Positions 4,457-57,137 of a stretch of DNA of 64,000 nt are shown piece after piece. Within the stretch, counting starts at the first letter, position 1. Each line of letters starts with the position of its first letter. Location: NCBI RefSeq assembly GCF_001190925.1, contig NZ_CP011072.1:1178001-1242000 (forward strand), given 5' to 3'. Origin of the DNA: Azoarcus sp. CIB. Its GTDB lineage: Bacteria; Pseudomonadota; Gammaproteobacteria; Burkholderiales; Rhodocyclaceae. The position numbers and the translations under genes are program-made. Below the pieces are notes generated by a model. That model had not been told where the DNA came from. It ran no database searches and saw only the letters and a list, made by a program, of their open reading frames with translations.

Positions 4457-5244
4457 TGCGTCACCCATGCGTCGATGCGGTTGCCGTTGTTGTCGCGGCC
4501 GCGCGCATGGATGCGCGTTCCTGCCGCTGCGTCGGCGGGCATGTCGATGGTGAACAGCGGGTTCTCGGAAACCGGTTCGTAGGCGCGGATGCGCATCAGC
4601 TCCGCGCCGGATTCGTCGGCGAGGCTCAGTTCCTCGATATGGAACACCGGGATGCCGGGCGCGAGGCCGGTGTCCATCGGGTGGATCACGCGCACGCGCA
4701 GGCGCTCGCCGCCATCGGTGCGCGGAAAGATCCTGCCGCTGACCTGGTTCAGGCGCTCCTGCCACTCGGGCGAGCCCGATCCAGTGGACGGCGCCGTGCA
4801 CCCGCCGCCCGTCGCCGTGATCCACACGCCGCCCACGTGCCACACGCCGTCGGCGGTGCGGGCGGCGGCGCGCACCGGCGAGGACTGCTGCAGCTTGAGG
4901 CGGAAGGCGAGGGCGGGGCGCGACTTCTTCGGCTGGAAGCGCAGCACCGGGAGGATGGGATTGAAGTCGGCGAAGACGAGCACCTCTTCAACGCCGGGCA
5001 GTTCGCTCGCATCGACGGAGACCGGGACGTTGAGCGAATCCTCGGCGATCACTGGCGCCACGACTTTCACTCGCGCATCGAATACGACGCTGGCGCCCGC
5101 GAAGAAGGTCTTCACCATGTCGCCCCAGCGCGCCGAGTCGAGCGGATCCGCGCTGGCGGCTGCAGCAGCAGGGGGGGCGGCCGGCGCCTCCGTGACGGGG
5201 CACAGCCAAAACATCGCCAGCACGATCAGGGTCGAACTGCGCAT
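4453..5244 (-). CDS. quinoprotein dehydrogenase-associated SoxYZ-like carrier protein
   Basis: 263 residues with a signal peptide (MRSSTLIVLAMFWLCPVTEAPA). The N-terminal part resembles SoxY and ends in a Gly-rich loop TATGGGCTAPS, whose Cys is in the position of the substrate-carrying cysteine at the SoxY C-terminus. The C-terminal part (about 165-263) resembles SoxZ, so this is a YZ fusion. It is the first gene of a four-gene leftward operon with overlapping junctions and sits divergent to the PQQ dehydrogenase. A consensus sigma-54 promoter lies upstream at 5301-5316. The carried group in alcohol metabolism is unknown. Confidence 0.85.
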   Translation of the reverse strand: MRSSTLIVLAMFWLCPVTEAPAAPPAAAAASADPLDSARWGDMVKTFFAGASVVFDARVKVVAPVIAEDSLNVPVSVDASELPGVEEVLVFADFNPILPVLRFQPKKSRPALAFRLKLQQSSPVRAAARTADGVWHVGGVWITATGGGCTAPSTGSGSPEWQERLNQVSGRIFPRTDGGERLRVRVIHPMDTGLAPGIPVFHIEELSLADESGAELMRIRAYEPVSENPLFTIDMPADAAAGTRIHARGRDNNGNRIDAWVTQ

Positions 5245-5300: not shown

Positions 5301-5316
5301 AGCAAGGGGTGTGCCA
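5301..5316 (-). promoter_or_regulatory. sigma-54 promoter (-24/-12) for the SoxYZ-like / kinase operon
   Basis: Read on the minus strand: TGGCAC A CCCC TTGC T, a full match to the TGGCACRNNNNTTGCW consensus with correct spacing of the GG and GC pairs. It lies 57 bp before the ATG of the SoxYZ-like gene and faces away from the PQQ dehydrogenase promoter at 5490. Confidence 0.8.
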
Positions 5317-5349: not shown

Positions 5350-5374
5350 GGCGCAGTTGCTCCAAAACGGAACA
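5350..5374. promoter_or_regulatory. candidate upstream activator site A
   Basis: Half-sites GGCGCA, 2 bp, TGCTCC, 5 bp (AAAAC), GGAACA. The right-hand 17-bp palindrome is identical, spacer included, to the one at 53311-53327. It lies between two divergent sigma-54 promoters, 42 bp from the leftward one and about 115 bp from the rightward one, and so could serve both. It is one of five such sites in the window. Confidence 0.65.
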
Positions 5375-5489
5375 CGTGCTGTCAATCAGAGCAATGAAAA
5401 TCGCTAGATGTACCGATATCGCCTTGAAAAACTCGTTGCTTGGGCCATGTTTCAGGAACCGGAGAGGATTTTCGGCGGCAGCGGCCCGG

Positions 5490-5505
5490 TGGCACGCCCT
5501 TTGCG
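5490..5505 (+). promoter_or_regulatory. sigma-54 promoter for the PQQ alcohol dehydrogenase
   Basis: TGGCAC G CCCT TTGC G, a match to the -24/-12 consensus apart from the last base. It lies 79 bp upstream of the dehydrogenase ATG at 5585. The activator site at 5350-5374 is upstream at a normal enhancer distance. Confidence 0.8.
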
Positions 5506-5584
5506 AACCCTGCAGCCGAATCCGGTCGCCCGGTCAGGGAGGCGGTTTCCAACAATACGACGAGATTCGAAAAGGAGGATTCAA

Positions 5585-7381
5585 ATGGAGCAGATCCGGA
5601 AACGCGCAGGGTGGTCCGTCGCGGTGTCCGTCCTCGCGCTGTCCCTGGCAGGCATGGGGAGCGCGCAGGCCAAGGAGGTGACCGACGCGGACATCCTCGC
5701 GGACGGCACCGGCAATACCTCGCAGGTCGTTACCCACGGCCTCGGCACCAAGGGCCAGCGTTTCAGCCCGCTGGCGAAGGTGAACCCCCAGACGGTCAAG
5801 AACCTCGTGCCGGTGTGGTCGTTCTCGTTCGGCGGCGAAAAGCAGCGCGGCCAGCAGTCGCAGCCGCTGGTGCATGACGGCAAGATGTTCGTGACCGCCT
5901 CCTACAGCCGCATCTTCGCGCTCGACGTGAAGACCGGCGAGAAGCTGTGGAAATACGAGCACCGCCTGCCCGACGGCATCATGCCGTGCTGTGACGTCGT
6001 CAACCGCGGCGCCGCGATCTACGGCAACCTGGTGATCTTCGGCACGCTCGACGCGCAGCTCGTCGCGCTGGACAAGGACACCGGCAAGGTGGTGTGGAAG
6101 GAGAAGATCGAGGACTACAAGGCGGGTTACTCCTTCACCGCCGCGCCCCAGATCGTCAAGGGCATGCTCATCACCGGCAACTCCGGCGGCGAGTTCGGTA
6201 TCGTCGGGCGCGTGGATGCGCGCGATCCGAAGACCGGCAAGCTGATCTGGACGCGTCCGGTGGTCGAAGGCCACATGGGCTTCAAGTACGACAAGGACGG
6301 CACCCAGGTCGAGAACGGCATCAGCGGCACGACCAACGCCACCTGGCCGGGCGACCTGTGGAAGACCGGCGGCGCGGCACCGTGGCTGTCGGCCTACTAC
6401 GATCCGGACGTCAACCTGATCTTCATCGGCACCGGCAACCCGGCGCCGTGGAACAGCTGGCTGCGTCCGGGCGACAACCTGTACTCGTCCTCGACCGTCG
6501 CGATCGATCCCGACACCGGCAAGATCGTGTGGCACTACCAGACCACGCCGCACGACGGCTGGGACTACGACGGCGTGAACGAATTCGTGTCCTTCGAGTA
6601 CAAGGATCCGAAGAGCGGCAAGATGGTCAAGGCGGGCGGCAAGGCGGACCGCAACGGCTTCTTCTTCGTCAATGACCGCACCAACGGCAAGCTGCTCAAC
6701 GCCTTCCCGTTCGTGAAGCAGATCGATTGGGCCAAGGGCATCGACCTGAACACCGGCCGTCCGCTCTACGACGACAAGAAGCGCCCGGGCAACCCCTTCA
6801 CCGAAGGCGGCGGCGACGGCAAGAAGGGCGAGGTGGTGCTCAATGCGCCGTCCTTCCTGGGTGGCAAGAACCAGATGCCGATGGCTTTCAGCCCGAAGAC
6901 CGGCTACTTCTACGTGCCGGCCAACGAGTGGGCGATGGACATCTGGAACGAGCCGGTGTCGTACAAACGGGGCGCGGCTTACCTCGGCGCGGGCTTCACG
7001 ATCAAGCCGCTCAACGAGGATTACATCGGCGCGCTGCGCGCGGTCGATCCGGTCAGCGGCAAGATCGTGTGGGAAGTGAAGAACAACGCGCCGCTGTGGG
7101 GCGGCGTCCTCGCGACCGGCGGCAACCTGGTGTTCTACGGCACCCCCGAAGGCTACCTGAAGGCGATCGACGCGACCTCCGGCAAGGAAGTCTGGAAGTT
7201 CCAGACCGGCTCCGGGATCATCGCGCCCCCGATCACCTGGGAAGACGGCGGCGAGCAGTACATCGCGGTGGTGTCGGGCTGGGGCGGCGCGGTGCCGCTG
7301 TGGGGCGGGGATGTCGCCAAGCGCGTGAACTTCCTCGAGCAGGGCGGTTCCGTATGGGTGTTCAAGCTGCACAAGTCGTAA
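5585..7381 (+). CDS. PQQ-dependent alcohol dehydrogenase, lanthanide-type signature
   Basis: 598 residues with a cleavable signal peptide ending near SAQAKE. It is an eight-bladed quinoprotein propeller: repeated W-motif blades ([20 protein letters not shown]), the adjacent cysteine pair Cys135-Cys136 (MPCCDV) that lies over PQQ, and the catalytic Asp327 in [11 protein letters not shown]. The second acid Asp329, two residues on, is the extra ligand typical of lanthanide-dependent XoxF, ExaF and PedH enzymes; calcium enzymes usually have Ala or Ser there. There is no fused haem domain, so a separate cytochrome, such as that at 54257-54718, should accept electrons. AAGGAGGA 8 nt upstream fixes the start. 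It likely oxidises short alcohols in the periplasm; the exact substrate is unknown. Confidence 0.93.
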
Positions 7382-42897: not shown

Positions 42898-44595
42898 TCA
42901 GGCGGCGTTCTCGAACAGCTCCGGCGGGATGTCCTCGGGGCACAGCTGGCTGGCCTCGTCCCCCATCAGCGCGAGCATGAGGCGCAGTTGGTTGCGCAGC
43001 TCGCGCAGGTTGCCCGGCCAGCGGTGGCGGTGCAGCAGCGCAAGCGCGTCGGGGCACACGTAGACCGGTCTCCCGGCGGCGGCCTCGCGCACGAAATGGC
43101 GCACGAGCTCGTCGAAATCGTCGCGCTCGCGCAGCGGCGGCAGGCTGATGATCCGGCCGCTGGCCGCCTCGAAATTGCGCAGGTCGAGTCGCCCCTCGCG
43201 ACGCAGTTCGGCGAGCGGCCGCCGTGCCGCACCGATCACGCGGGCGCGGCTGCCGTCGTGGGCGTCGAAGAGTCGCGCCTGCAGCGTTGTGGGTAGTGCG
43301 TCGATCTCCACGAGGAAGAGGATGCCGTTGGCCGCCTGCACCCAGGCGCGGTCCAGTTCCGCCTCCGCGGCTTCGCCAGCGGGCAGGGCCGCACAGTCGA
43401 TGCCGATCAGCGGCGCGTCCGCGGTCGGTTTGTGGTCTTCGTGGAACGCCCGCACGAGATGCGCCTTGCCGGTCCCCATCTCGCCTTCGATCAGCAGCGG
43501 GGTGGCTTCCGCGGCGCAGTTGCGCAGCGTGCCGACAATGCGCGCGATGCGCCCGTCGCCGCGGCCGATCGCGCCCAGACGGGAGTCGTCGTGGCGGGTA
43601 GTTGCGCTGCGCGGTCCCGTGTCGACGTGGCGTCGCGAACGCAGGTTGGCGCGGGCGATGAGCGTGCGGCCTTTCAGGTCGTAGAGCGGAAAGGGCGCGT
43701 CGGGCGCCTGCGCTGCCCAGCCGACCAGGCTGCTCCAGGGCGTCGCGAAGCAGGCTTCATAGGTCGTTGCGGGATGTGACGCGTCCAGACCGAGCATTCC
43801 GCGCGCTTTGCGATTGCTCGCGACGAGGCGGCCGCCTTCGTCGAACACGACGAGCGCATGCAGCGGGTCGGCGAGCGCATCGCGGCGCGTGTGGAAGTGC
43901 AGCGTGAGGAAGCCGTCGTCCAGCGTTTCCAGCAGGCGGTGCTCGATCAGTTCGGCCGTTGTGCGCAGCAGCGCTTCGGCGTGCGTGAGGTTTTCGCGCG
44001 CATCCGACGACACGTCGAGGATGCCGAGCATGCCGCCGGTGGGTGCGAGGATGGGTGTGGCGACGCAGGTGAAGATGCGGTTGCGTGCGAGGTAGTGCTG
44101 ATCGCCGTGCACCGTGACGACCGTCCCGGAGTGCAGCGCCGTGCCGATCGCGTTGGTGCCCATCGTGGCCTCGCTCCAGTCGACGCCGGGCCGCAGGGCG
44201 ACGCGGCTGGCGCGGTCGAGGAAGTCGGTGTGGCCCAGCGCGCTGAGGATCATGCCCTGGCGGTCGGCCAGCAGCACCGTGGATGAGGGGCTGCCGATCT
44301 GGCGATACAGGCCTTCGATCATCGGGCGCGAAAACGCGAGCAGCCGGTTGTTTGCCGCGATGCGGTCCGTGAGTTCGCCCGGCGCGAGCGCCGTGTCGTT
44401 GAGCGGTTCGTCCGGACGCAGGCCGTGCTCGCGGCTGCGCTGCCACGATGCGATGAGCGGTTCCGGTCGGGATCTGGGGGGTGAAGCTTCCATCATGGGG
44501 AGCGATGAAGCATGAATCATTCCGTCGGCGTCGAGCCGCGCGAGTAAAGGGGTTTTTGCGGCAGCGGGGCGTGCGTGGTGCGGCGCCGTTGTCAC
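42898..44595 (-). CDS. degenerate AcoR-type sigma-54 activator homologue lacking GAFTGA and DNA-binding domain
   Basis: Up to 565 residues from GTG 44595; later starts (ATG near 44520-44500) are possible. The N-terminal AcoR architecture is normal: SWQRSREHGL, a GAF domain with SEATMGTNAIGTAL, and a PAS-like region. The AAA+ domain is damaged: Walker A is GEMGTGKA, the part holding the GAFTGA loop is missing, Walker B reads LFLVEID with Val in place of the Asp, and the protein ends after WPGNLRELRNQL without a Fis helix-turn-helix. It therefore cannot bind DNA or open sigma-54 complexes by the usual means. It is divergent from the aldehyde dehydrogenase, so it may be a ligand-sensing modulator. 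Confidence 0.8.
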   Translation of the reverse strand: MTTAPHHARPAAAKTPLLARLDADGMIHASSLPMMEASPPRSRPEPLIASWQRSREHGLRPDEPLNDTALAPGELTDRIAANNRLLAFSRPMIEGLYRQIGSPSSTVLLADRQGMILSALGHTDFLDRASRVALRPGVDWSEATMGTNAIGTALHSGTVVTVHGDQHYLARNRIFTCVATPILAPTGGMLGILDVSSDARENLTHAEALLRTTAELIEHRLLETLDDGFLTLHFHTRRDALADPLHALVVFDEGGRLVASNRKARGMLGLDASHPATTYEACFATPWSSLVGWAAQAPDAPFPLYDLKGRTLIARANLRSRRHVDTGPRSATTRHDDSRLGAIGRGDGRIARIVGTLRNCAAEATPLLIEGEMGTGKAHLVRAFHEDHKPTADAPLIGIDCAALPAGEAAEAELDRAWVQAANGILFLVEIDALPTTLQARLFDAHDGSRARVIGAARRPLAELRREGRLDLRNFEAASGRIISLPPLRERDDFDELVRHFVREAAAGRPVYVCPDALALLHRHRWPGNLRELRNQLRLMLALMGDEASQLCPEDIPPELFENAA

Positions 44596-44625
44596 GCATC
44601 GGAACAGGTGTTGCCTTGTTGAGCA
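44590..44625. promoter_or_regulatory. candidate upstream activator site B
   Basis: Half-sites TGTCAC, 5 bp, GGAACA, GG, TGTTGC, 5 bp, TGAGCA. Geometry is the same as the sites at 46539 and 53292, with more mismatches. It lies 113 bp upstream of the sigma-54 promoter at 44738. Confidence 0.5.
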
Positions 44626-44737: not shown

Positions 44738-44753
44738 TGGCACGCGCCCTGCG
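44738..44753 (+). promoter_or_regulatory. sigma-54 promoter for the aldehyde dehydrogenase
   Basis: TGGCAC G CGCC CTGC G: the -24 element is perfect, the -12 element is CTGC instead of TTGC, and the spacing is correct. It lies 63 bp before the start codon at 44816. Confidence 0.7.
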
Positions 44754-44815: not shown

Positions 44816-46336
<1,521 letters not shown>

Positions 46337-46538: not shown

Positions 46539-46574
46539 TGTTCCGAAATGGAGCACCTGTTCCGTGGTGGAACA
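46539..46574. promoter_or_regulatory. candidate upstream activator site C (best copy)
   Basis: Two 17-bp palindromes in tandem: TGTTCC N5 GGAGCA at 46539-46555 and TGTTCC N5 GGAACA at 46558-46574, the second perfect in its arms, centres 19 bp apart. It lies 42 bp upstream of the -24/-12 element at 46616 that precedes the transporter operon. Confidence 0.7.
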
Positions 46575-46615: not shown

Positions 46616-46631
46616 TGGATCGAATCCTGCA
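46616..46631 (+). promoter_or_regulatory. weak sigma-54 promoter for the transporter operon
   Basis: TGGATC G AATC CTGC A keeps the essential GG and GC pairs with the right 10-nt gap but differs from consensus at three other positions. It lies 66 bp before the first ATG (46698) and next to activator site C. Confidence 0.55.
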
Positions 46632-46697: not shown

Positions 46698-47690
46698 ATG
46701 CTGCGACCCTTTGCGCGTGCGTGCCTTGCCGCGGCTGCGCTCCTTGCCTGCCTGATTGCACCGGTGCGCGCCGCCGAGCCTGCGCCGATCCGCATCGGCG
46801 TGCTGCAGTACGGCACCGTGAGCTGGGAGCTCGAGGTGATGAAGCGCATGGGCTACGCCGAACGCGAGGGGGTGCGGATCGAGGTCGTGCCGCTCGCGCA
46901 GAAGGACGCCGCCAACGTCGCGCTGCAGGGCGGGGCGGTCGACGTCATCGTCAATGACTGGATCTGGGTCGCACGTCAGCGCGCCGAAGGGCGGGATTTC
47001 GCCTTCGTGCCGTACTCGCGCGCGGTGGGCGGCATCATGGTGCGACCCGATGCGAACGTGCGCTCGCTCGCCGACCTGCGCGGGCAGCGTCTGGGAGTCG
47101 CCGGCGGCGCGCTGGACAAGAGCTGGCTGCTGCTGCGGGCGTGGTCGCGCAGGACGGTCGGCGAGGACGCAGCGACCTTCCTGAAGCCCGATTTCGGCGC
47201 GCCGCCGCTCCTCAACGCCTTGATGCTGAAGGGCGAACTGCCCGCGGTGATGAACTTCTGGCACTTCTCCGCGCGCCTCAAGGCCGCCGGCATGCGCGAG
47301 CTGCTCACGCTGGACGACATCCTGAAGGGGCTCGGCGTCGACGGCGAGCTGCCGATGATCGGCTGGGTGTTCCGCGAGGAGTGGGCGGCGAAGAACCGTG
47401 CGGCCTTCGAGGGCTTCCTGCGCGCCGGCGCCCAGGCGCGGCGGCACATGCGCGAGTCCGACGCGGTGTGGGAGGAGTTGCGTCCGCTCACGCGCGCCGA
47501 GGACGACGCGACGCTCGCGGCGCTGCGCGACGGGTTCCGTGCCGGCATTCCCGGCGAGGACATCGCGCAGGCCGAACGCACCGCGCGGCGCGTGTTCTCG
47601 ATCCTCGCCGAGGAGGGCGGCGCCGAACTCGTCGGCAGCGCCACGACCCTGCCCGCGGGCACCTTCTGGCGTGCGGGTGGGGCCCGCTGA
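46698..47690 (+). CDS. NitT/TauT-type ABC transporter binding protein
   Basis: 330 residues with a signal peptide ending at PVRAAEP. Fold of the NMT1/SsuA/ThiY type: IRIGVLQYGTVSWELEVMK, the DVIVNDWIWVARQRAEGRDF segment, a LADLRGQRLGV hinge and GGALDKSWLLLRAW. In this family the ligand may be a sulfonate, nitrate, a pyrimidine or other small anions; none can be chosen. It is the first gene of a long operon that continues into the PedABC-like genes, and its stop overlaps the permease start (TGATG). Confidence 0.85.
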   Translation: MLRPFARACLAAAALLACLIAPVRAAEPAPIRIGVLQYGTVSWELEVMKRMGYAEREGVRIEVVPLAQKDAANVALQGGAVDVIVNDWIWVARQRAEGRDFAFVPYSRAVGGIMVRPDANVRSLADLRGQRLGVAGGALDKSWLLLRAWSRRTVGEDAATFLKPDFGAPPLLNALMLKGELPAVMNFWHFSARLKAAGMRELLTLDDILKGLGVDGELPMIGWVFREEWAAKNRAAFEGFLRAGAQARRHMRESDAVWEELRPLTRAEDDATLAALRDGFRAGIPGEDIAQAERTARRVFSILAEEGGAELVGSATTLPAGTFWRAGGAR

Positions 47691-48511
47691 TGAAGGCAGG
47701 CACCGATGACTCCGCGTCCTGGCCCGCGCCGGCCATGAGCGCCCGGCCAGCGATGAAGCGCATCCGGCCGCTGGGCGAGGGCTGGCTGCGCGCGGCCTCG
47801 CTCGTCGCCTTCCTCCTGCTGTGGCAGATCGCCGCCGCGCTGCTGCAGAGCCCGACGCTGCCGCCCCCGGCGACGGTCTTCGCGCGCATCGTCGCCGAGA
47901 CGAGATCGCTCGCCTTGCCCTCGCATCTGGCCATCACGCTCGCGCGCGTCACGGTTGCCTTCCTCCTCGCGATGGCGATCGGCGCGGCCATCGGCATCGC
48001 GATGGGACGCTGGCGCCGGCTCGACCTGCTGCTCGACGGCTGGCTCGTGCTCGGACTCAACATCCCCGCGCTCGTCACCATCATCCTGTGCTACGTGTGG
48101 TTCGGCCTCAACGACGCCGCGGCGATCGTCGCCGTCGCCGTGAACAAGATCCCCACCGTCGTCGTCACCGTGCGCGAGGGTGCGCGCGCGGTGGACGCCC
48201 GCCTGATGCAGGTCGCGCGTGCCTACCGGCTGCCGCGCGTGCGCACCTTCACCCACGTCTACCTGCCCCAGCTCGTGCCCTACCTGATGGCCTCGGCGCG
48301 CTCGGGCCTGTCGCTGATCTGGAAGATCGTGCTCGTCGTGGAACTGCTCGGGCGCAGCAACGGCATCGGCTTCCAGCTCAACATGTTCTTCCAGCTCTTC
48401 GATATCACGGGCATCCTTGCCTACACGCTGGTGTTCGCCGCGATCGTGCTCGTCGTCGAGGCGGCGGGCCTGCGCCCACTGGAGCGGCGCCTGACGCGCT
48501 GGAGGTCCTGA
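47690..48511 (+). CDS. NitT/TauT-type ABC transporter permease
   Basis: 273 residues, six predicted membrane helices. The EAA loop is VDARLMQVARAYRLPRVRTFTHVYLPQLVPY (about 164-194). SsuC-like features include the LPPPATVFARI start and GRWRRLDLLLDGW. It begins within the stop of the binding-protein gene and ends directly before the ATPase ATG. Confidence 0.88.
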   Translation: MKAGTDDSASWPAPAMSARPAMKRIRPLGEGWLRAASLVAFLLLWQIAAALLQSPTLPPPATVFARIVAETRSLALPSHLAITLARVTVAFLLAMAIGAAIGIAMGRWRRLDLLLDGWLVLGLNIPALVTIILCYVWFGLNDAAAIVAVAVNKIPTVVVTVREGARAVDARLMQVARAYRLPRVRTFTHVYLPQLVPYLMASARSGLSLIWKIVLVVELLGRSNGIGFQLNMFFQLFDITGILAYTLVFAAIVLVVEAAGLRPLERRLTRWRS

Positions 48512-49276
48512 ATGCTCGACATCGCCATCGACCGCAAGGCCTACCCCGACCGCGGCGGGGCGCCCCACGTCGCGCTCGCGGGCCTGCACCTCGCGGCCGC
48601 GCCGGGGGAGTTCGTGTGCGTCGTCGGCCCCTCGGGCTGCGGCAAGAGCACGCTGCTCAACGTCGTCGGCGGGCTCGACCGCGACGTCGATGGCCGCGTG
48701 CGGCTCGCCGGCGCGGATGCCGCGCACGACATCGGCTTCATGTTCCAGGAGCCGCGCCTGATGCCCTGGCTCACGGTGCTGGACAACGTGCTCCTCGTCA
48801 CCGGGGCTTCGCCCGCGGCCAGACTGCGCGCATGCGAACTCCTCGCCGCGATGGGCCTCGGTGACGTGCTCGACGCCTTTCCGGGCCGCCTGTCCGGCGG
48901 CATGCAGCGCCGCGTAGCGCTCGCGCGTGCCTTCGTGATCGAGCCGAAGCTGCTGCTGATGGATGAGCCTTTCGTGTCGCTCGACGTGCCCACCGCCAAC
49001 CGCCTGCGCGCGATGCTGGTGGAACTGTGGCAGCGCTCCCGGGCGACGGTGCTCTTCGTCACCCACGATCTGCGCGAGGCGCTGGCGCTCGCCGACCGCA
49101 TCTGCTTTCTCTCGCCCGCCCCAGGGCGGGTCGTGCTCGAACTCCCCATCGTGCTGCCACGGCCGCGTCTGCCCGACGATGCGGCGGTGCAGACGCTCCA
49201 GGCGGAGCTTCTCGCGCAGCACCCCGAACTGCTTGCCGGACTCGCGACCAGCCCGGACGGGACCACGGATGAATGA
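48512..49276 (+). CDS. NitT/TauT-type ABC transporter ATPase
   Basis: 254 residues. Walker A GPSGCGKST, Q-loop FMFQEPRLMPWLTVLDN, signature LSGGMQRR, Walker B LLLMDEPFVSLD, switch His FVTHDLREAL. The Q-loop EPRLMPW is typical of SsuB/TauB ATPases. GGAGG precedes the ATG. It completes an importer with the two previous genes. The next ATPase start overlaps its stop by 8 bp. Confidence 0.9.
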   Translation: MLDIAIDRKAYPDRGGAPHVALAGLHLAAAPGEFVCVVGPSGCGKSTLLNVVGGLDRDVDGRVRLAGADAAHDIGFMFQEPRLMPWLTVLDNVLLVTGASPAARLRACELLAAMGLGDVLDAFPGRLSGGMQRRVALARAFVIEPKLLLMDEPFVSLDVPTANRLRAMLVELWQRSRATVLFVTHDLREALALADRICFLSPAPGRVVLELPIVLPRPRLPDDAAVQTLQAELLAQHPELLAGLATSPDGTTDE

Positions 49277-50069
49277 TCGTATGAGTATCGGCAGCGAAGG
49301 GCCGCAATCCGCATCCACGGCGCAGGAGGGGGGCGCCCTCCTGAAGCTGGCCGACGTGCGCAAGTCCTACGGCGCGCGCGAGGCATTGTGCGGCGTGAGC
49401 CTCGCCGTCGGCCGCGGCGAGTTCGTCGCGCTGCTGGGGCCCAACGGCGCGGGCAAGAGCACCCTGTTCCAGCTCCTCACCGGCCTGTTCAACGCCGACG
49501 CCGGTCGTATCGAAGTGTGCGGCCACGACATCCGCCACGACGCGGTCGCGGCGCTCGCGCACCTGGGCGTCGTGTTTCAGCAGAGCACGCTCGACCTCGA
49601 TCTGGGCGTCGCCGCGAACCTGAAATTCCACGCCGCGCTGCACGGCTTGGGTGGGCGACACGCACGCGAACGCGTCGCCGACGCGCTGGGCCGCCTCGGC
49701 CTCACCGAACGCGCGAACGACCCCGTGCGGGAGCTCTCCGGTGGCAACCGCCGCAAGGTCGAGCTTGCGCGTGCGCTGGTGCACGAGCCGGCCGTGCTGC
49801 TGATGGACGAGGCAACCGTCGGCCTCGACCCGGCCTCGCGCCGCCAGCTCCTCGACGAGGTGCTGGCGCTGCGTGCGCGCGGTGTCGGCGTGCTTTGGGC
49901 GACCCACCTTGTCGATGAGGCAGAGGCCGCCGACCGCGTCATCGTGCTGCACCGCGGCCAGATCCTCGCCGAGGGCGCCCCGCAGGCACTCGCCGCGCAG
50001 GCCGGCACGGCCACCCTCGCCGACGCCTTCCTGCAGATGACCGGCGGCGGCAGCGAGCGCAGCGACTGA
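49269..50069 (+). CDS. PQQ-dependent alcohol dehydrogenase system ABC ATPase (PedB-like)
   Basis: 266 residues from ATG 49269 (ATG 49281 also possible). ABC-2-type export ATPase with Walker A GPNGAGKST, the VVFQQSTLDLDLGVAANLKFHAALHGL region, signature LSGGNRRK, Walker B LLMDEATVGLDP and WATHLVDEAE. Followed by a beta-propeller, a binding protein and an ABC-2 permease, it matches the transporter set found near quinoprotein alcohol dehydrogenases. In Pseudomonas putida a related set (PedA1A2BC) supports growth at low lanthanide levels. Confidence 0.85.
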   Translation: MNDRMSIGSEGPQSASTAQEGGALLKLADVRKSYGAREALCGVSLAVGRGEFVALLGPNGAGKSTLFQLLTGLFNADAGRIEVCGHDIRHDAVAALAHLGVVFQQSTLDLDLGVAANLKFHAALHGLGGRHARERVADALGRLGLTERANDPVRELSGGNRRKVELARALVHEPAVLLMDEATVGLDPASRRQLLDEVLALRARGVGVLWATHLVDEAEAADRVIVLHRGQILAEGAPQALAAQAGTATLADAFLQMTGGGSERSD

Positions 50070-50124
50070 ACGCCTACAAACCAAAAAAACCGTCCTGGAA
50101 ATCCGACCCCGAGAGGAGACCCGC

Positions 50125-51102
50125 TTGATTCCCCGCACCCGACTCATCGCCGCCGGCGTCCTCGCGCTCGCTGCCGGCGCCGCCACCGCCAAGGGCACCG
50201 GCTACGTGTTCGTCAGCAGCGAGAACGACCATGCCGTGACCGTGCTCGACAGCAAGACCTGGCAGGTCGTGAAGACCATCGCCACCGGCCAGCGCCCGCG
50301 CGACATGCGCCTGTCGCCCGACGGCAGCCAGATCTATGTGGTCGCGAGCAAGGCCAACCGCGTCGACGTCATCGACATCGCCCAGCTCAAGGTGAGCCAC
50401 AGCATCCCCGTCGGCGAGGATCCGGAGATGTTCGACCTCTCGCCCGACGGCAAGCGCCTCTACGTCTCGAACGAGGAGGGCGCGCAGGTGTCCGTGATCG
50501 ATGTCGCGACGAAGAAGTCGGTCGCGCGTATCGAGGTCGGCGAGGAGCCCGAAGGGGTGCGCCTGTCGCCCGACGGCAAGCGCGTGTATGCGACCTCCGA
50601 GGTCGCGAACATGGTGCACGTCATCGACACCACGACCCACAAGATCCTCGCCAACGTCGTCGTCGCCAACCGCCCGCGCCGCTTCGCGATGACGCCGGAC
50701 GGCGCCGAAGTGTGGGTCACCTCCGAACTCGGCGGCAAGGTCACGGTGCTCGACGGCGCCACGAACGCGGTCAAGGCCACGATCGCCTTCACGCCCAAGG
50801 GCTTCCGCGCCGACGATGTCACCCCCGTCGGCATCGCGATGACGGGCGACGGCAAGACCGCGTACGTCACGCTCGGGCGCGCCAACCACATTGCCGTCGT
50901 CGATGTCGCCAGTCGCAAGGTGCAGGACTACGTGCTCGTGGGCAACCGCGCCTGGGGTGCGAGCCTGAACCGCAACGGCAGCCTGCTCTTCGTCGCCAAC
51001 GGCCTGTCCGACGACATCTCCATCGTCGACACCAAGACCCGCAAGGTGCTGCGCTCGGTGCCGGTCGGGCGCGTGCCGCACACCGTCGTGATCGACGACT
51101 GA
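50125..51102 (+). CDS. PQQ-dependent catabolism-associated beta-propeller protein
   Basis: 325 residues, TTG start at 50125 with GAGAGGAG upstream. A signal peptide (MIPRTRLIAAGVLALAAGAATA) is followed by seven YVTN-type beta-propeller repeats, each with an LSPDGKRLY-like strand and VIDxxTxK turn. It is periplasmic and part of the transporter set with the genes on either side. It probably binds a ligand or scaffolds the binding protein; its role is not proven. Confidence 0.88.
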   Translation: MIPRTRLIAAGVLALAAGAATAKGTGYVFVSSENDHAVTVLDSKTWQVVKTIATGQRPRDMRLSPDGSQIYVVASKANRVDVIDIAQLKVSHSIPVGEDPEMFDLSPDGKRLYVSNEEGAQVSVIDVATKKSVARIEVGEEPEGVRLSPDGKRVYATSEVANMVHVIDTTTHKILANVVVANRPRRFAMTPDGAEVWVTSELGGKVTVLDGATNAVKATIAFTPKGFRADDVTPVGIAMTGDGKTAYVTLGRANHIAVVDVASRKVQDYVLVGNRAWGASLNRNGSLLFVANGLSDDISIVDTKTRKVLRSVPVGRVPHTVVIDD

Positions 51103-51115
51103 GGGCGGACGACCC

Positions 51116-52303
51116 ATGCGCACCCGCCCGAACCTGCTCCTGCGAGTCGTCCTCGGCAGCCTCGCCGCGCTCGTCGCCGCCTCCGCGTTCGCGGCGACCA
51201 GCGTGCGCCTCGCCCACCTCGAACTCGAAACCGATTCCCGCTACGACGAGACGAAGCTCTTCTTCCGCGGCCTCGCCCAGCCCCTCGGTCGGCCCTTCGC
51301 CGGCGCGGAGGTCGCGCTGCGCGAGGCGCGTTTCGTCGGCCAGGCGGTGGGCGCCGAATTCGCGCTCGAACGCGTCACCGGCGCCGATGCGAAGGCGCTT
51401 CTCGCCGCGATCGACAAGCTCAACAAGGAAGGGGTGCGCTACTTCCTCCTCGATGCGCCCGGCGCCGTCGTCGCCGAGCTCGCCAAAGCCGTGCGGGGCA
51501 GGGAGCTCCTGCTCTTCAACGTCTCCGCCCCCGACGACGCACTGCGCCAGGCGCAGTGCCAGCCGAACCTGCTGCACACGCTGCCCAACGACGCGATGCG
51601 CATGGACGCGCTCGCGCAGTACCTGGTGTCGAAGAAGTGGCGCAACGTCCTGATGCTCGAAGGCCCGCGCCCCGAGGACAAGCTCGTGGCGGAAGCCTTC
51701 GACCGCGCCGCCAAACGCTTCGGCCTGAAACTCGTCGAGCGCCGCCCCTTCGTGCTCTCCAACGACCCGCGCCAGCGCGACCAAGGCAACGTCGCGCTGC
51801 TCACGGCCGGCAGTGAGCACGACGTCGTCTTCGTTGCCGACAGCGACGGCGAGTTCGCGCGCAGCGTTCCCTACCGCACGGTGCGCCCGCGCCTCGTGGT
51901 CGGCACCGAAGGCCTCGCCGCGGCCGCGTGGTCCTGGGCGTGGGAGCGCCACGGTGCACCGCAATTGAACAGTCGCCTCGAGAAACACGCCGGCCGCAAG
52001 ATGGCCGACCCCGACTGGGCCGCGTGGATGGCGGTGAAGGCGGTTGTCGAGGCGGTCGTGCGCACGCAGAACGGCCCCTTCGGAACGGTCGCGAAATACC
52101 TCAAGAGCGAGGAGATCACGCTCGACGGCTTCAAGGGCAACCGCCTCGGCTTCCGCGCCTGGGACAACCAGCTGCGCCAGCCCGTGCTGCTCGCGACCCA
52201 CAACGCGGTCATCGAGCGCGCGCCGATCGCGGGTTTCCTGCATCCGACCAACAACCTGGACACCCTCGGCTTCGACCAGCGCGATAGCCGCTGCGCGTTC
52301 TGA
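51116..52303 (+). CDS. PQQ-dependent alcohol dehydrogenase system binding protein
   Basis: 395 residues with a signal peptide (about 1-28, ending SAFAATS). The fold looks like branched-chain amino acid type (periplasmic binding type I) proteins: RYFLLDAPGAVVAELAKAV, FNVSAPDDALRQAQCQPNLLHTLPND and KKWRNVLMLEGPRPEDKLVAEAF. Such proteins occur beside quinoprotein alcohol dehydrogenases with an ABC-2 permease. It starts 13 bp after the propeller gene and is followed 16 bp later by the permease. Confidence 0.87.
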   Translation: MRTRPNLLLRVVLGSLAALVAASAFAATSVRLAHLELETDSRYDETKLFFRGLAQPLGRPFAGAEVALREARFVGQAVGAEFALERVTGADAKALLAAIDKLNKEGVRYFLLDAPGAVVAELAKAVRGRELLLFNVSAPDDALRQAQCQPNLLHTLPNDAMRMDALAQYLVSKKWRNVLMLEGPRPEDKLVAEAFDRAAKRFGLKLVERRPFVLSNDPRQRDQGNVALLTAGSEHDVVFVADSDGEFARSVPYRTVRPRLVVGTEGLAAAAWSWAWERHGAPQLNSRLEKHAGRKMADPDWAAWMAVKAVVEAVVRTQNGPFGTVAKYLKSEEITLDGFKGNRLGFRAWDNQLRQPVLLATHNAVIERAPIAGFLHPTNNLDTLGFDQRDSRCAF

Positions 52304-52319
52304 ATCGGGACCCCGCCCC

Positions 52320-53132
52320 ATGAGACTCTCCCACGCGTGGCTCGCGCTGCAGGCGATCACCGGCCGCGAAATCGCCAAGTTCGTGCGCCAGGGCGGGCGC
52401 TTCGCCTCGGCGCTGGTGCGGCCGCTGCTGTGGCTCGTCGTCTTTGCGGCGGGCTTCCAGAACGTCTTCGGCGTGTCGATCATCCCGCCCTACGACACCT
52501 ATATCCCGTACCAGGTCTACATCGTGCCGGGCCTATTGGGCATGGTGCTGCTCTTCAACGGCATGCAGTCTTCGCTGGCGATGGTGTACGACCGCGAGAT
52601 GGGGATGATGCGACTCTTGCTGACTGCGCCGCTGCCGCGCAGCTTCCTCCTCTTCGCCAAGCTTCTCGCGGGCACCCTGCTGTCGGTGCTGCAGGCCTAC
52701 GTCTTCCTCGTGATCGCGTTTTTCTTCGGCGTCGAGGTGCCGTGGGCGGGCTGGCTCACCGCGCTGCCCGTGATCGTCCTCGCGGGCATGATGCTCGGTG
52801 CGCTAGGGCTGCTGCTGTCCGTGCAGGTGCGTCAGCTCGAAAACTTCGCCGGCACGATGAATTTCGTCATCTTCCCGATGTTCTTCGTCTCGCCCGCGCT
52901 GTATCCGCTGTGGAAACTCGAGGAATCCGGTGCCGCCATCGTACATGCGGTCGCGCAGTGGAACCCCTTTACGCACGCGGTCGAGGCGATCCGCTTCGCG
53001 CTCTACGGCCAGCTCGCCGCGACCTCGCTCGCGATCGTCGCCGGCTGCCTCGCCGTGTTCTTCACGCTCGCGGTACGCGGCTACGATCCGCAACGCGGCA
53101 TGCTGAAGCGGGCGGGCGGCAAACCGGCTTGA
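52320..53132 (+). CDS. ABC-2 type permease of the PQQ alcohol system (PedC-like)
   Basis: 270 residues from ATG 52320, six membrane helices. ABC-2 features: GLLGMVLLFNGMQSSLAMVYDREMGMMRLLLTAPLPRSFLLFAKLLAGT, then the central FPMFFVSPALYPLWKL. It forms the membrane part of the transporter with the ATPase at 49269. Last gene of the rightward operon; a partial palindromic element follows 25 bp after the stop. Confidence 0.88.
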   Translation: MRLSHAWLALQAITGREIAKFVRQGGRFASALVRPLLWLVVFAAGFQNVFGVSIIPPYDTYIPYQVYIVPGLLGMVLLFNGMQSSLAMVYDREMGMMRLLLTAPLPRSFLLFAKLLAGTLLSVLQAYVFLVIAFFFGVEVPWAGWLTALPVIVLAGMMLGALGLLLSVQVRQLENFAGTMNFVIFPMFFVSPALYPLWKLEESGAAIVHAVAQWNPFTHAVEAIRFALYGQLAATSLAIVAGCLAVFFTLAVRGYDPQRGMLKRAGGKPA

Positions 53133-53157
53133 CGGAGGCGGGCGAGGGAAGCGATCC

Positions 53158-53195
53158 CGTAGGGCGGAAAAGCGCAGCGCCTTCCGCCGCATGGC
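53158..53195 (+). repeat. half copy of the GTAGGGCGG palindromic element
   Basis: CGTAGGGCGGAAAAGCGCAG then CGCCTTCCGCC, a shorter relative of the 98-bp elements with only the left half. It lies just after the permease stop. Confidence 0.6.
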
Positions 53196-53291
53196 AGGGG
53201 TGATCGGAGCGCATGCGGCGGAGCAGTTGGCAAACTCGGCCTTCGCTCGTCCGTCCAGCCGGAATTGCGCCGACGACGCGGAAAACGCCTC

Positions 53292-53327
53292 TGTTTCAAT
53301 GCGGAGCAGGTGCTCCAAAACGGAACA
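53292..53327. promoter_or_regulatory. orphan activator site D
   Basis: TGTTTC, 5 bp, GGAGCA, GG, TGCTCC, AAAAC, GGAACA: all four half-sites are close to consensus, and the right palindrome is identical to that of site A. No -24/-12 element or gene start lies within about 150 bp on either strand, since both flanking operons end here. Confidence 0.6.
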
Positions 53328-53343
53328 ACGAGATCAAAAACAA

Positions 53344-53397
53344 GCCGGATGTTCAGCAAAACCGTGCATAGGTTTTGCTGAACATCCGGCAATTTTT
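53344..53397. terminator. 20-bp perfect-stem bidirectional terminator
   Basis: Arms 53344-53363 and 53371-53390 pair without mismatch (start GCCGGATGTTCAGC), loop GTGCATA. T-rich runs follow on both strands (AATTTTTC to the right, TTGTTTTTG on the minus strand). It separates two converging operons. Confidence 0.9.
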
Positions 53398-53424
53398 CAG
53401 GGCGCCGAGTGCCCCGAAAGTCGT

Positions 53425-54267
53425 TCAGGGAACTCTGTGCGTGACCCCGTGGGCCGAGAAGATCCGCCCAAGCTCGCCCGACCGTTGCAGGTCCGCCAGC
53501 GCCGCCGCCAGCGCCGCCGCCAGCTCCTTGCTGTCGGCCTTCACGGCCATGCCGAGCGGCCAGCCTTTCACACGCAACTCGGGCATGGTCAGCGCATCGA
53601 TCGCGAACTGCCTGTGCTCCTTCATCGCCGCTTCCAGCTGGCTGCGCGGGGCCATCACGGCACTGACTTCGCCCTTCGCCATCGCGGCTGCCGCGTCGGC
53701 AACGCTGCGGAAATGCACGACGTTGTCGCGCAGCCGGCCATTCAGCACGTGCAACATGAAGTCGCTCGCGTGCGTGTCGAGCTCGACGCCGATCTTCTCG
53801 CGTGTAAATACTTCGAAGGCCACCGCGGCCGAACCCGACACCGACGGCACGCGCTCTGGATTGCGCGCGATCGCGATCGTCTCGAGGTGATAGGGGCCGA
53901 AGATCGCCACCTTGTCGTTCTGTGCCGCGAACTGCGCATCCACGGGCACATGCAGCATCACGTCGGCCGGACGCCCGCCGAGGTAGTGCCCTTTCCACAC
54001 CATGTTGCGCAGGTCGTCGCTCATGTTCTCGTCGGGCGGGAACTCGACGATCTCCGCGCGCATCCCCAGGCGCTCGGCCAGGGACTGCGCGAGGGCCACG
54101 TCGATGCCCTTGCCGCGTGCCGAGAAGGGCGCGTAGTCGGCATACACGGCCACCCGCAGGGTGCCCGCCTGCTGCACTTCGGGCTGTGCGGCCGCGTGGG
54201 CCGGGAGCAGGGCGCCTGCCAGCAGGGCGCCCGCGCCGATCAGGAATGCGCGTCGTTCATTTCTCAC
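53425..54267 (-). CDS. quinoprotein dehydrogenase-associated extracellular solute-binding protein
   Basis: 280 residues from GTG 54267, overlapping the cytochrome gene by 11 bp. Twin-arginine-like start (RNERRAFLIGAGALLAGALL). SBP_bac_3 fold: GTLRVAVYADYAPFS, GIDVALAQSLAERLGM, and WPLGMAVKADSKEL. Proteins of this group accompany methanol and ethanol quinoprotein dehydrogenases (MxaJ-like) and may help maturation or donor access rather than import. No permease is next to it. Confidence 0.88.
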   Translation of the reverse strand: MRNERRAFLIGAGALLAGALLPAHAAAQPEVQQAGTLRVAVYADYAPFSARGKGIDVALAQSLAERLGMRAEIVEFPPDENMSDDLRNMVWKGHYLGGRPADVMLHVPVDAQFAAQNDKVAIFGPYHLETIAIARNPERVPSVSGSAAVAFEVFTREKIGVELDTHASDFMLHVLNGRLRDNVVHFRSVADAAAAMAKGEVSAVMAPRSQLEAAMKEHRQFAIDALTMPELRVKGWPLGMAVKADSKELAAALAAALADLQRSGELGRIFSAHGVTHRVP

Positions 54268-54718
54268 GTACGGTCTCCAGCCAGGCCTTGATTGCCCACA
54301 TCGCCTCCTGCGACAGCATGCCCTCGAACGGCGGCATATACACCGCGCCGTTGCGGCTCACGCCATTGCGGATGCGCTGCAGGAAATATTCGTCCGTTTC
54401 GGGCGCGATGTCGAGCTTGCGCAGATCCGGCGCGATGCCGCCCGAGACCGCACCGAGGCCGTGGCAGCGCGCGCAGTTCTGGTTGAAGGCCGAATCGCCG
54501 ATGCGGATCGCCTCCGCGTTGTCGCGGTAGGGGTTCACCGCACGCCATTCCTCGCCGAGCTTGGGCAGCGTCGATACATCCACCGCCTGCGGCGTCACGT
54601 CGCCGTGTGCGTGGGCCAGTCCCGCTCCGAGCGCGAGTCCCGCGGCGAGGGCCGCTGCGCGCAGTTTGCGGGTCAATGTCTCCTTGTCGTTGTACTTATC
54701 CACCTTCTGATTCCTCAT
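54257..54718 (-). CDS. cytochrome c-550, PedF-like electron acceptor
   Basis: About 153 residues from ATG 54718; a GTG at 54703 or TTG at 54676 with better RBS are alternatives. Signal peptide RKLRAAALAAGLALGAGLAHA, then one haem site CARCH and a distal Met in the YMPPFEGMLS segment. It matches the PedF/ExaB-type cytochrome that takes electrons from quinoprotein alcohol dehydrogenase. Co-transcribed with the solute-binding protein from a consensus sigma-54 promoter at 54762-54777. Confidence 0.87.
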   Translation of the reverse strand: MRNQKVDKYNDKETLTRKLRAAALAAGLALGAGLAHAHGDVTPQAVDVSTLPKLGEEWRAVNPYRDNAEAIRIGDSAFNQNCARCHGLGAVSGGIAPDLRKLDIAPETDEYFLQRIRNGVSRNGAVYMPPFEGMLSQEAMWAIKAWLETVREK

Positions 54719-54761: not shown

Positions 54762-54777
54762 CGCAAGCCCTGTGCCA
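54762..54777 (-). promoter_or_regulatory. sigma-54 promoter for the cytochrome c-550 operon
   Basis: Minus strand: TGGCAC A GGGC TTGC G, matching the -24/-12 consensus apart from the last base. It lies about 45-60 bp before the possible start codons of the cytochrome gene and 105 bp from activator site E. Confidence 0.8.
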
Positions 54778-54881: not shown

Positions 54882-54917
54882 TGCTTCGACCTGGTGCAGG
54901 TGCTACTTTCTGACACA
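54882..54917. promoter_or_regulatory. candidate activator site E
   Basis: TGCTTC, 5 bp, GGTGCA, GG, TGCTAC, 5 bp, GACACA. It has the four-half-site geometry of sites C and D with several mismatches. Located between the divergent cytochrome and activator genes. Confidence 0.5.
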
Positions 54918-54970: not shown

Positions 54971-57040
54971 ATGGCCGTATTGCCGCAATTGCGGGATCGC
55001 CGCGAGAACACCATTTCGGACGCGCGACGATTTTTCTTCGAGCTTGGCCAGACGCCGGAGGCCGGGCTCGCCCCTCCTGTGCTGCGTTCCTGGCAGCGCT
55101 GTCGCACCGGCGGGCTCGACCACCTCGATGCCTACCTGATCGACCCCGCCGGCCGCGCCCAGCTCTCCGACGCACGCGACCGCAGTGCGCGGCTGCTGGA
55201 GCACGCGGGCGGGATCATGGAACACGTGTTCGAACAGATCCGCGCCTCGGGCAGCATGGTCATCCTCGCCGACACGAAGGGCATGATCCTGCACTGCCTC
55301 GGCGACCCCGATTTCGTCGGCCGCGCGCAACGCGTCGCACTCCAGCCGGGCGCATCGTGGGACGAAACCTTCCGCGGCACCAATGCGATCGGCACCGCGA
55401 TCCTCGAAGGCGCACCGGTCGAAATCCACGGCGCCGAGCACTACCTGGAACGCAATGGCTTTTTGACCTGCAGTGCCGCGCCGGTGTTCAACGCACAAGG
55501 GTGCATCGCCGGTGTGCTGGATATCTCGGGCGACTCGCGCAGCAACCAGCGCCATACGCTGGGCCTCGTGCGCCTTTCGGTGCAGTTGCTCGAAAAGCGG
55601 CTCTTCGAGGCAGAGTTCGCCAAGGAAATCCGCATCGCCTTCCATCCGCGCCCCGAATACGTCGGCAGCCTGCAGGAAGCGATGCTCGCGGTCGATGCCG
55701 ACGGCCGCATCGTCGGCGCCAACCCCGTCGCGCGCGAATGGCTGGGGCTTACGGCCGGGCTCGCCGACGCACCGTCCTTCGGCACGCTCTTCCGCGCCGG
55801 CTTCGGCCAGGTGCTCGACCGTGCCGCCAACGCGCCCGACGACCTGCTGCTGCTCGAAATGCGACGCGGCGATGCCGTATACGTGCAGGTGCGCGGCCAC
55901 CGGCGGACGCGCCCGGAAGTCCATGCGCCCAGATTGCAGGAAACTGCCCCGGCGTCGGCGAAGGGGGGAGCGAAAAACCCGGAGGGTTCGAAGGTCCGCA
56001 TCACCCTCGACTGCCTTGCGACCGGCGACGCCCGCCTGCAACTCGCGCTCGACCGCGCGCGCCGCGTCCAGGGCAAGGACATCCCGCTGCTGATCCAGGG
56101 CGAATCGGGTGTCGGCAAGGAACTCTTCGCGCGTGCCTTCCACAACAGCGGCGTGCGCAGCGACGGCCCCTTCGTCGCGCTCAACTGTGCGGCGATTCCC
56201 GAAAACCTCATCGAATCGGAACTCTTCGGCTACGTCGGCGGCTCCTTCACCGGCGCGCGGCGCGAGGGCGCGGTCGGCAAGCTGCAGCAGGCCCACGGCG
56301 GCACGCTGTTCCTCGATGAAATCGGCGACATGCCGCTCGGCATGCAGGCGCGCCTGCTGCGCGTGCTGCAGGAGCGCAGCGTCACGCCGATCGGTTCGAT
56401 GAAATCCATCCCGGTCGACATCTCCCTCGTGTGCGCAACGCACCGCGTGCTGCGCGACGCCGTAAAGCAGGGCGTGTTCCGCGAGGATCTCTACTACCGC
56501 GTCAACAGCCTCACCGTCACCCTGCCGCCGCTGCGCGATCGCACCGACGTCCGCCGTATCGTGCTGAACCTGCTCGAGATCGAAGCGGCCGACCGGCGGC
56601 GCGGGCCGCTCGGCATCAGCGAAGAGGTCATGGACTTCTTCGAACGCTACCCTTGGCCGGGCAATGTCCGCCAGCTCCAGAACGTCATCCGCGTCGCGGT
56701 CGCGCTGCTCGACGACAACGAGGACGAGATCGCGTCGATCCATCTGCCCGAGGAGCTCTTCGGTATCGACGGCGGGGACGACATTTCGGAGCCCGCCACG
56801 CGACCAGCGGTCGCGATGGCCCCGGCTTACGCCTCGCCTTTTGGCGCCGCAGTGCCCACGGCGGCCGCTGCGCTTGCCCCCTCGGCACCCGCACCCGGCG
56901 CCCCGCGCAGTCTGGATGAAATCGAACTCGAAGCGATCACCACGGTCATGCGCGAGGTGGGCGGAAACGTCTCGGCCGCTGCGCGCAGGCTGGGCGTCAG
57001 CCGCAATACGCTCTACCGCAAACTCGGCAAGTTGAACTGA
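54971..57040 (+). CDS. AcoR-type sigma-54-dependent transcriptional activator
   Basis: 689 residues, AGGAGAGGAGGAG upstream. N-terminal domain with SWQRCRTGG, GAF domain with DETFRGTNAIGTA, PAS-like middle, then an intact AAA+ domain: Walker A GESGVGKE (about 377), GSFTGA loop (about 424, Ser variant of GAFTGA), Walker B LFLDEIGD, arginine finger region FREDLYYRVN, and C-terminal Fis helix-turn-helix (NVSAAARRLGVSRNTLYRKL). It lies between the cytochrome operon and the aldehyde oxidoreductase operon, both with sigma-54 promoters, and is the best candidate for the activator of the whole regulon. Confidence 0.92.
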   Translation: MAVLPQLRDRRENTISDARRFFFELGQTPEAGLAPPVLRSWQRCRTGGLDHLDAYLIDPAGRAQLSDARDRSARLLEHAGGIMEHVFEQIRASGSMVILADTKGMILHCLGDPDFVGRAQRVALQPGASWDETFRGTNAIGTAILEGAPVEIHGAEHYLERNGFLTCSAAPVFNAQGCIAGVLDISGDSRSNQRHTLGLVRLSVQLLEKRLFEAEFAKEIRIAFHPRPEYVGSLQEAMLAVDADGRIVGANPVAREWLGLTAGLADAPSFGTLFRAGFGQVLDRAANAPDDLLLLEMRRGDAVYVQVRGHRRTRPEVHAPRLQETAPASAKGGAKNPEGSKVRITLDCLATGDARLQLALDRARRVQGKDIPLLIQGESGVGKELFARAFHNSGVRSDGPFVALNCAAIPENLIESELFGYVGGSFTGARREGAVGKLQQAHGGTLFLDEIGDMPLGMQARLLRVLQERSVTPIGSMKSIPVDISLVCATHRVLRDAVKQGVFREDLYYRVNSLTVTLPPLRDRTDVRRIVLNLLEIEAADRRRGPLGISEEVMDFFERYPWPGNVRQLQNVIRVAVALLDDNEDEIASIHLPEELFGIDGGDDISEPATRPAVAMAPAYASPFGAAVPTAAAALAPSAPAPGAPRSLDEIELEAITTVMREVGGNVSAAARRLGVSRNTLYRKLGKLN

Positions 57041-57071: not shown

Positions 57072-57087
57072 TGGCATGATATTTGCG
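57072..57087 (+). promoter_or_regulatory. sigma-54 promoter for the aor operon
   Basis: TGGCAT G ATAT TTGC G: -24/-12 match with correct spacing, 50 bp before the ATG of aorA. Confidence 0.8.
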
Positions 57088-57137
57088 ATCTGCGACACGT
57101 TGTCCCGAAGCGAAACAAACGACGGAGGAGTACATCG

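Follow-up and report, generated by a model that had tools for sequence, protein, structure and literature searches.

A tandem palindromic element shared by the alcohol-oxidation operons of Azoarcus sp. CIB, its probable sigma-54 activator, and a conserved copy between converging operons

The closest described systems each resemble part of the locus analyzed here, and the likenesses and differences given below are drawn from portions of the sources cited. AorR and AdhR of Clostridiales are, like the regulator proposed here, sigma-54 EBPs with alcohol- and aldehyde-related targets and inverted TGT/ACA-type sites (TGY-N11-RCA in the present case), and the AorR regulon covers the aor genes (PMC6615313). 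Unlike the sites of AorR and AdhR (PMC6615313), those found here form a fixed tandem, separated by 2 bp, of palindromes whose TGYTCC half-sites are longer, and they would belong to a PQQ-dehydrogenase regulon that has an extra site in a convergent gap. BmoR, the regulator of PBMO in Thauera butanivorans, is similarly an alcohol-responsive EBP with a sigma-54 promoter and an inverted-repeat UAS, a likeness judged from the description; it differs in having an alkane monooxygenase as its target and a UAS 193 bp upstream (PMC8899819). The gene set is similar to that of Pseudomonas ped/exa, with its quinoprotein alcohol dehydrogenase, PedI/ExaC aldehyde dehydrogenase, and PedA1A2BC transporter, but regulation in Pseudomonas is of a two-component, LuxR type, whereas an EBP with sigma-54 boxes is found here (PMC12997753). 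In the EBP regulome of Desulfovibrio vulgaris, TGT/ACA sites have spacers of 9, 11, or 12 bp and a few EBP sites lie 40 to 70 bp downstream of promoters; a conserved site between converging operon ends, which is present here, is not described in the portion of that study cited (PMC4641369). In the open-access literature covered, mostly as titles and abstracts, no description of the present regulon, or of a site where operon ends converge, was recognized. Sigma-54 activators that act through palindromic sites are already familiar; what is unusual here is the conserved site in the convergent gap.

The DNA analyzed was a 64-kb stretch (64,000 nucleotides) of the Azoarcus sp. CIB genome, called the window below, and its features are collected in Table 1. 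The products of the ABC operon scored above the cut-offs of TIGR03866, TIGR03863, and TIGR03861 and also matched NMT1, BPD_transp_1, and, for two of them, ABC_tran. The window additionally contains an aldehyde:ferredoxin oxidoreductase (AOR) operon, whose sigma-54 box is conserved, yet no tandem palindrome of its own was found within the window. At an AOR operon in a related stretch, about 8 kb from the activator, a strong site (L187, 4397-4432, score 43.2) lies 63 bp from the box. Two genomes of the genus showed irregular genes, with a stop inside the PQQ dehydrogenase reading in L225 and an activator in two overlapping pieces in L164, which may reflect sequencing error or decay.

Table 1. 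Features of the window. Match counts are to the ideal 36-mer; matrix scores are from the leave-genus-out matrix.
Feature	Position	Strand	Remarks
SoxY/SoxZ-like protein	4453..5244	-	Pfam SoxY, SoxZ; divergent from PQQ alcohol dehydrogenase
-24/-12 box TGGCACACCCCTTGCT, SoxY/SoxZ-like gene	5301..5316	-	score 20.7; 41 bp from site E
Site E	5358..5393		between PQQ alcohol dehydrogenase and SoxY/SoxZ-like gene; 18/24; matrix 21.7
-24/-12 box TGGCACGCCCTTTGCG, PQQ alcohol dehydrogenase	5490..5505	+	score 20.3 of 21.3; 96 bp from site E
PQQ-dependent alcohol dehydrogenase	5585..7381	+	TIGR03075, 778.6 bits, cut-off 480 (query started two codons earlier, at 5579)
AcoR-like paralogue	42898..44496	-	without GAFTGA loop, without HTH
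Site D	44590..44625		between ExaC-type aldehyde dehydrogenase and truncated AcoR-like gene; 19/24; matrix 25.8
-24/-12 box TGGCACGCGCCCTGCG, aldehyde dehydrogenase	44738..44753	+	score 19.3; 112 bp from site D
ExaC-type aldehyde dehydrogenase	44816..46336	+	NF050026, 951.5 bits, cut-off 900
Site A	46539..46574		upstream of PQQ-associated ABC operon; 23/24; matrix 50.4; best place in the genome
-24/-12-like box TGGATCGAATCCTGCA, ABC operon	46616..46631	+	score 17.6; 41 bp from site A
ABC operon	46698..53132	+	NMT1-like SBP, permease, two ATPases, PQQ beta-propeller, PQQ_ABC_bind, PedC-type permease
Site B	53292..53327		between 3' ends of PedC-like permease and SBP genes; 21/24; matrix 39.8
Bidirectional terminator, 20-bp stem	53344..53390		16 bases from site B; -39.2 kcal/mol, z -8
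Periplasmic substrate-binding-type protein	53425..54267	-	Pfam SBP_bac_3
Cytochrome c	54257..54670	-	Pfam Cytochrome_CBB3
-24/-12 box TGGCACAGGGCTTGCG, cytochrome/SBP operon	54762..54777	-	score 19.7; 104 bp from site C
Site C	54882..54917		between AcoR-type gene and divergent cytochrome gene; 16/24; matrix 19.3
AcoR-type activator	54971..57040	+	Pfam GAF, Sigma54_activat (GSFTGA loop), HTH_8 (Fis-type HTH)
-24/-12-like box, AOR operon	57072..57087	+	GGYATG...TGC core kept in 13 aligned sequences

The element is 36 bp long and consists of the 17-bp palindrome TGYTCC-N5-GGARCA repeated twice, 2 bp apart, and the window holds five copies of it. The preliminary description had proposed such an element at five places with a constant 5-2-5 spacing; all five are present and the spacing holds in 5 of 5, with the correction that site E, which had been placed at 5350-5374, was in the wrong register. 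The third base of the half-site is T in 41% and C in 56% of cases. With its 11-bp spacer the palindrome falls inside the TGT-N10..12-ACA class of UAS, the TGT itself being present in part of the half-sites. Copies were counted against an ideal 36-mer with 24 fixed bases (TGTTCC-N5-GGAACA-N2-TGTTCC-N5-GGAACA), for which 20 Markov copies of the window reached a maximum of 17/24; since site C matches at 16, it is not significant alone by that count. The sites were also scored with a leave-genus-out matrix trained on 28 sites, all from genera other than that of the window. By this matrix the five sites were the top five non-overlapping matches of the window, the sixth-ranked independent match reached only -6.4, and 15 order-2 Markov nulls peaked at 9.5.

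When the search was extended to the complete 5.26-Mb genome, sites A, B, and E were the sole matches to the 36-mer at up to 3 mismatches, and a reversed-pattern control gave 0. A profile built from 84 sites outside the genus of the window was then applied to the same genome, with the best 150 of 1503 first-look candidates scored, and among these the five sites ranked first, with E-values of 1.8e-6 for A, 4.7e-5 for B, 0.024 for E (which aligned only over profile positions 1-23 of 36), 0.068 for D, and 0.13 for C. Partial matches followed from an E-value of 0.43 among the same candidates. Sites C and D are individually weak, and it is conservation that supports them. The tandem 36-bp element itself is real. 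A third full palindrome beside the 36-mer was sought in every site class, and none scored above 5 at the expected register, where the mean was -12.6 at convergent sites versus about -18 to -25 elsewhere; the six third-palindrome matches above 5 all lay at other registers. Elsewhere in the window, single 17-bp palindromes occur at 51955 (16.8) and at 57101 (16.0, 3' of the AOR box), and the latter was rejected as a motif after it was found not to be kept in the relatives aligned.

Sigma-54 boxes were scored with -24/-12 weights that we take to represent the consensus. Such a box was found next to sites A, C, D, and E and not next to B; the boxes near C, D, and E (on both sides of E) are near-perfect, and the one near A is weaker. 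The expectation that all five sites would lie near a promoter, at 105 to 116 bp for several of them, was therefore only partly borne out: the distances are close to this range for C and D and not for A or B, and B has no promoter. We also surveyed 17 genomes of the genus for site E, 15 of which had a PQQ dehydrogenase match at 1e-200. The position of the site is kept in all 15, with scores of 10.8 to 30.5 that reach at least 12 in 13 of the 15 and are lowest in L222 (11.3) and L223 (10.8), and the box on the SoxY/SoxZ side stands 41 to 42 bp from the site in 15 of 15 loci, scoring 18.3 to 20.7. In relatives, sites also occur upstream of homologues of the substrate-binding protein gene at 46698, and the 41-bp distance to the box recurs in 5 of the 9 sites of the ABC-operon type.

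The protein encoded at 54971 has the features of a sigma-54 EBP, namely an AAA+ domain, a GAFTGA-type loop, and an HTH. Its C terminus, GNVSAAARRLGVSRNTLYRKLG, is nearly identical among homologues, and the HTH core SRNTLYRKL is conserved in nearly all of the homologues printed. Among the 25 of 30 named EBP families of NCBIfam that were shown, none exceeded its curated cut-off with this protein, the best being PrdR (304.2 of 795) and DhaR (270.7 of 551); "AcoR-type" is used here as a label for architecture only, and no acetoin gene was named among the window proteins scanned. The truncated paralogue at 42898-44496 is retained beside the aldehyde dehydrogenase gene in several genera. In still others the nearby AcoR-like gene either is full length and carries a different HTH helix, TRTTLYRKL, or combines this helix with the absence of the GAFTGA loop. 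EBP hetero-oligomers have been described in the part of the literature cited (PMC9542535), and the truncated paralogue might assemble with the activator into mixed rings.

We then compared the distribution of the element with that of the activator across the family. At up to 2 mismatches, the 36-mer was found in 35 of 297 family genomes (its own included), representing 10 of 68 genera, and the reversed control gave 0. A homologue of the N-terminal part of the activator, sought with at most 7 first-look candidates scored per genome (E of 1e-79 or lower, a threshold chosen afterwards to take in the weakest motif genome at 6.7e-80), was present in 35 of these 35 genomes compared to 46 of the 262 others (Fisher 2.4e-23), so that 46 genomes have an activator homologue and no site at this stringency; at the looser threshold of 1e-30, some homologue is found in 160 of 297 genomes. 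In 34 of the motif genomes the nearest site stood no more than 5 kb from the activator homologue, and in all 35 no more than 10 kb, which agrees with the proposal in the preliminary description that 54971 encodes the likely regulator. Because the activator gene clusters with its presumed targets, this linkage carries less weight as evidence. It is helped by L165, L173, and L185, in which a cytochrome gene was not detected beside the activator homologue and the site still lies just upstream of it, and by sites that stand away from the activator, such as those at an aldehyde dehydrogenase gene on another contig (L018), at a PQQ dehydrogenase gene about 50 kb off (L025), and at an AOR operon about 8 kb off (L017). 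Outside the family, where the profile was run at E of 1 or lower on 40 of 80 named loci, sites were found in L053 and L057 and a weak partial one in L058, and none was found in the other 37. The preliminary description would have been refuted by a motif scattered at random or missing from the corresponding promoters of relatives; this check, made computationally, gave no such result, and sites recur at orthologous promoters in other genera and, for site E, also within the genus.

The genomic setting of the sites was examined in 49 stretches (948,646 bases) that were picked for the motif or an activator homologue and do not amount to a census. Gene classes were assigned by tblastn with the window genes plus three extra queries (cytochrome c, DUF779, and cytochrome b561). 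The stretches gave 132 matches scoring at least 12, compared to 0 with the reversed matrix, and these condensed to 123 sites, comprising 69 divergent, 16 one-sided, 25 convergent, and 12 of no assigned class, and a single intragenic site within a kinase gene. No site of at least 12 was found in L167 or L171, both of which surround an activator homologue. A sigma-54 box of at least 17.5 was found within 180 bp in 67/69 divergent and 10/16 one-sided sites, for a total of 77 of the 85 promoter-side sites (the 6 other one-sided sites lacking one), and in 1/25 convergent sites, compared to 10.5% of 2000 random positions. By target, such a box faced the cytochrome gene in 44 of 44 cases, the aldehyde dehydrogenase gene in 22 of 22, and the ABC operon in 6 of 9. 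Conversely, a box faced the activator homologue in only 9 of 56 sites beside such genes, a set that includes paralogues, and this low number suggests that transcription of the activator gene probably does not itself depend on sigma-54.

Site B is upstream of nothing, as it lies in the gap 53132..53425 between two converging operons. The same placement was found at 25 loci in seven genera (the window and 24 others), of which 8 belong to the genus of the window, closely related genomes being non-independent. The flanking genes vary, the pairs being permease/SBP, cytochrome b/cytochrome c, SBP/cytochrome c, DUF779/SBP, cytochrome b/DUF779, and beta-propeller/cytochrome c. In the window, 163 bp separate site B from the permease gene, versus 12 to 94 bp in relatives of the genus, and the region 53132-53290 contains a short inverted repeat that looks REP-like. 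A hidden sigma-54 promoter beside B was considered and rejected: a box of at least 18.5 within 400 bp was found at 0/25 convergent sites versus 70/85 promoter sites and 10.3% of random positions, and the best candidate near B in the window scored 17.1 and had no GG core. A search near B for sigma-70-like promoters likewise found 0. The idea that a strong site B offsets a weak site C was not supported by eye, as several stretches (for example, L189 and L193) are strong at both.

What a site in this position might do can be read in several ways. It may be a remote enhancer common to the two convergent operons, from which the activator would reach, by looping, promoters lying 1.4 and 6.7 kb off in the window, and which would raise its local concentration for both, a possible reading that we regard as less likely than not. 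Enhancers acting over kilobases are described in the parts of the literature cited (PMC7408454, PMC4641369), and the placement of site B stays while its neighbors change and no strong box accompanies it. The convergent sites also come closer to the consensus, with at least 3 perfect half-sites in 13/25 compared to 8/85 promoter sites, and they are the top-scoring site of their stretch in 16/25 by a matrix that leans toward the convergent type. The difference in strength is small when the matrix is trained on promoter sites (medians of 34.7 versus 32.3, p 0.046); it is therefore partly a bias of training, yet the counts of perfect half-sites still differ. Against a remote enhancer, both target promoters already have upstream sites, and the corresponding gaps of L163 and L164, both of the genus of the window, and of L169 contain no site of at least 12. 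Alternatively, the site may act as an insulator, either because the bound activator stops read-through and the collision of polymerases or because the site has a second function as a hairpin at the 3' ends, which we consider somewhat doubtful. The filtering of read-through by a UAS is described in the part of a source cited, itself citing earlier work (PMC7408454), and perfect stems of at least 9 bp are found at 12/25 convergent and 3/12 class-less sites, compared to 1/69 divergent sites, 2/16 one-sided sites, and 4/400 random positions, with a T-run following the stem in L175 and L180. In most of the sites that form hairpins, however, no clear T-run follows, and site B of the window has a stem of only 5 bp and no T-run, and so does not qualify as an intrinsic terminator, while a separate terminator with a 20-bp stem adjoins it. 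That the activator at this near-consensus site provides both a shared remote enhancer and an insulator, fused in some genera with a transcript-ending hairpin, is a combination that we regard as rather unlikely to hold in full.

It is very improbable that the convergent-gap site is a mere terminator hairpin that resembles the motif. Long hairpins do occur at roughly every second convergent site, but a matrix built solely from promoter sites finds 25/25 of the convergent sites with a minimum of 22.9, compared to a maximum of 9.5 for the reversed control, and site B of the window is not a long hairpin. Nor do we think it at all likely that a regulator other than the 54971 protein occupies the sites. 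One candidate is the LuxR-type response regulator encoded at 1473-2120, whose gene lies together with a kinase gene near that of the PQQ dehydrogenase; AgmR is likewise of the LuxR type. The ped clusters of Pseudomonas use LuxR-type PedR2 and, in addition, AgmR, according to the portion of the source cited (PMC12997753). Against such a regulator, the promoter-side sites pair with sigma-54 boxes, and sites stand just upstream of activator homologues, including the three for which no cytochrome homologue was found. The other candidate, the truncated AcoR paralogue at 42898, has no HTH.

Taken together, computation shows the motif, where it lies, how far it is conserved, how it pairs with sigma-54 boxes, and how closely it is linked to the activator gene, and from these results we infer, with a probability of roughly 0.85, that the 36-bp element is the site pair of the 54971 sigma-54 EBP and serves to control the alcohol-oxidation operons, with site B as an auxiliary site. 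The two palindromes would be adjacent dimer sites for the 54971 protein, and an alcohol or aldehyde may be sensed through its N-terminal GAF region. At sites A, C, D, and E the activator would work on -24/-12 promoters 41 to 112 bp away, so that the PQQ alcohol dehydrogenase, the ExaC aldehyde dehydrogenase, the cytochrome c/SBP pair, and the PQQ-associated ABC operon are very probably under the control of the 54971 protein via sigma-54 and are presumably turned on by it. Site B would be an additional binding site at the point where two of these operons converge, most likely an auxiliary enhancer or insulator for both. The earlier idea of a single regulon is supported for the operons of A, C, D, and E, and its promoter role for B is not.

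This analysis gives PQQ-dependent alcohol oxidation a concrete candidate regulon that is distinct from the two-component scheme of Pseudomonas, with its putative activator, sites, and promoters placed base by base. If the reading of site B is true, the convergent-gap site would be a natural bacterial enhancer or insulator located behind genes, in seven genera, and the role of a sigma-54 activator away from promoters becomes a testable question.
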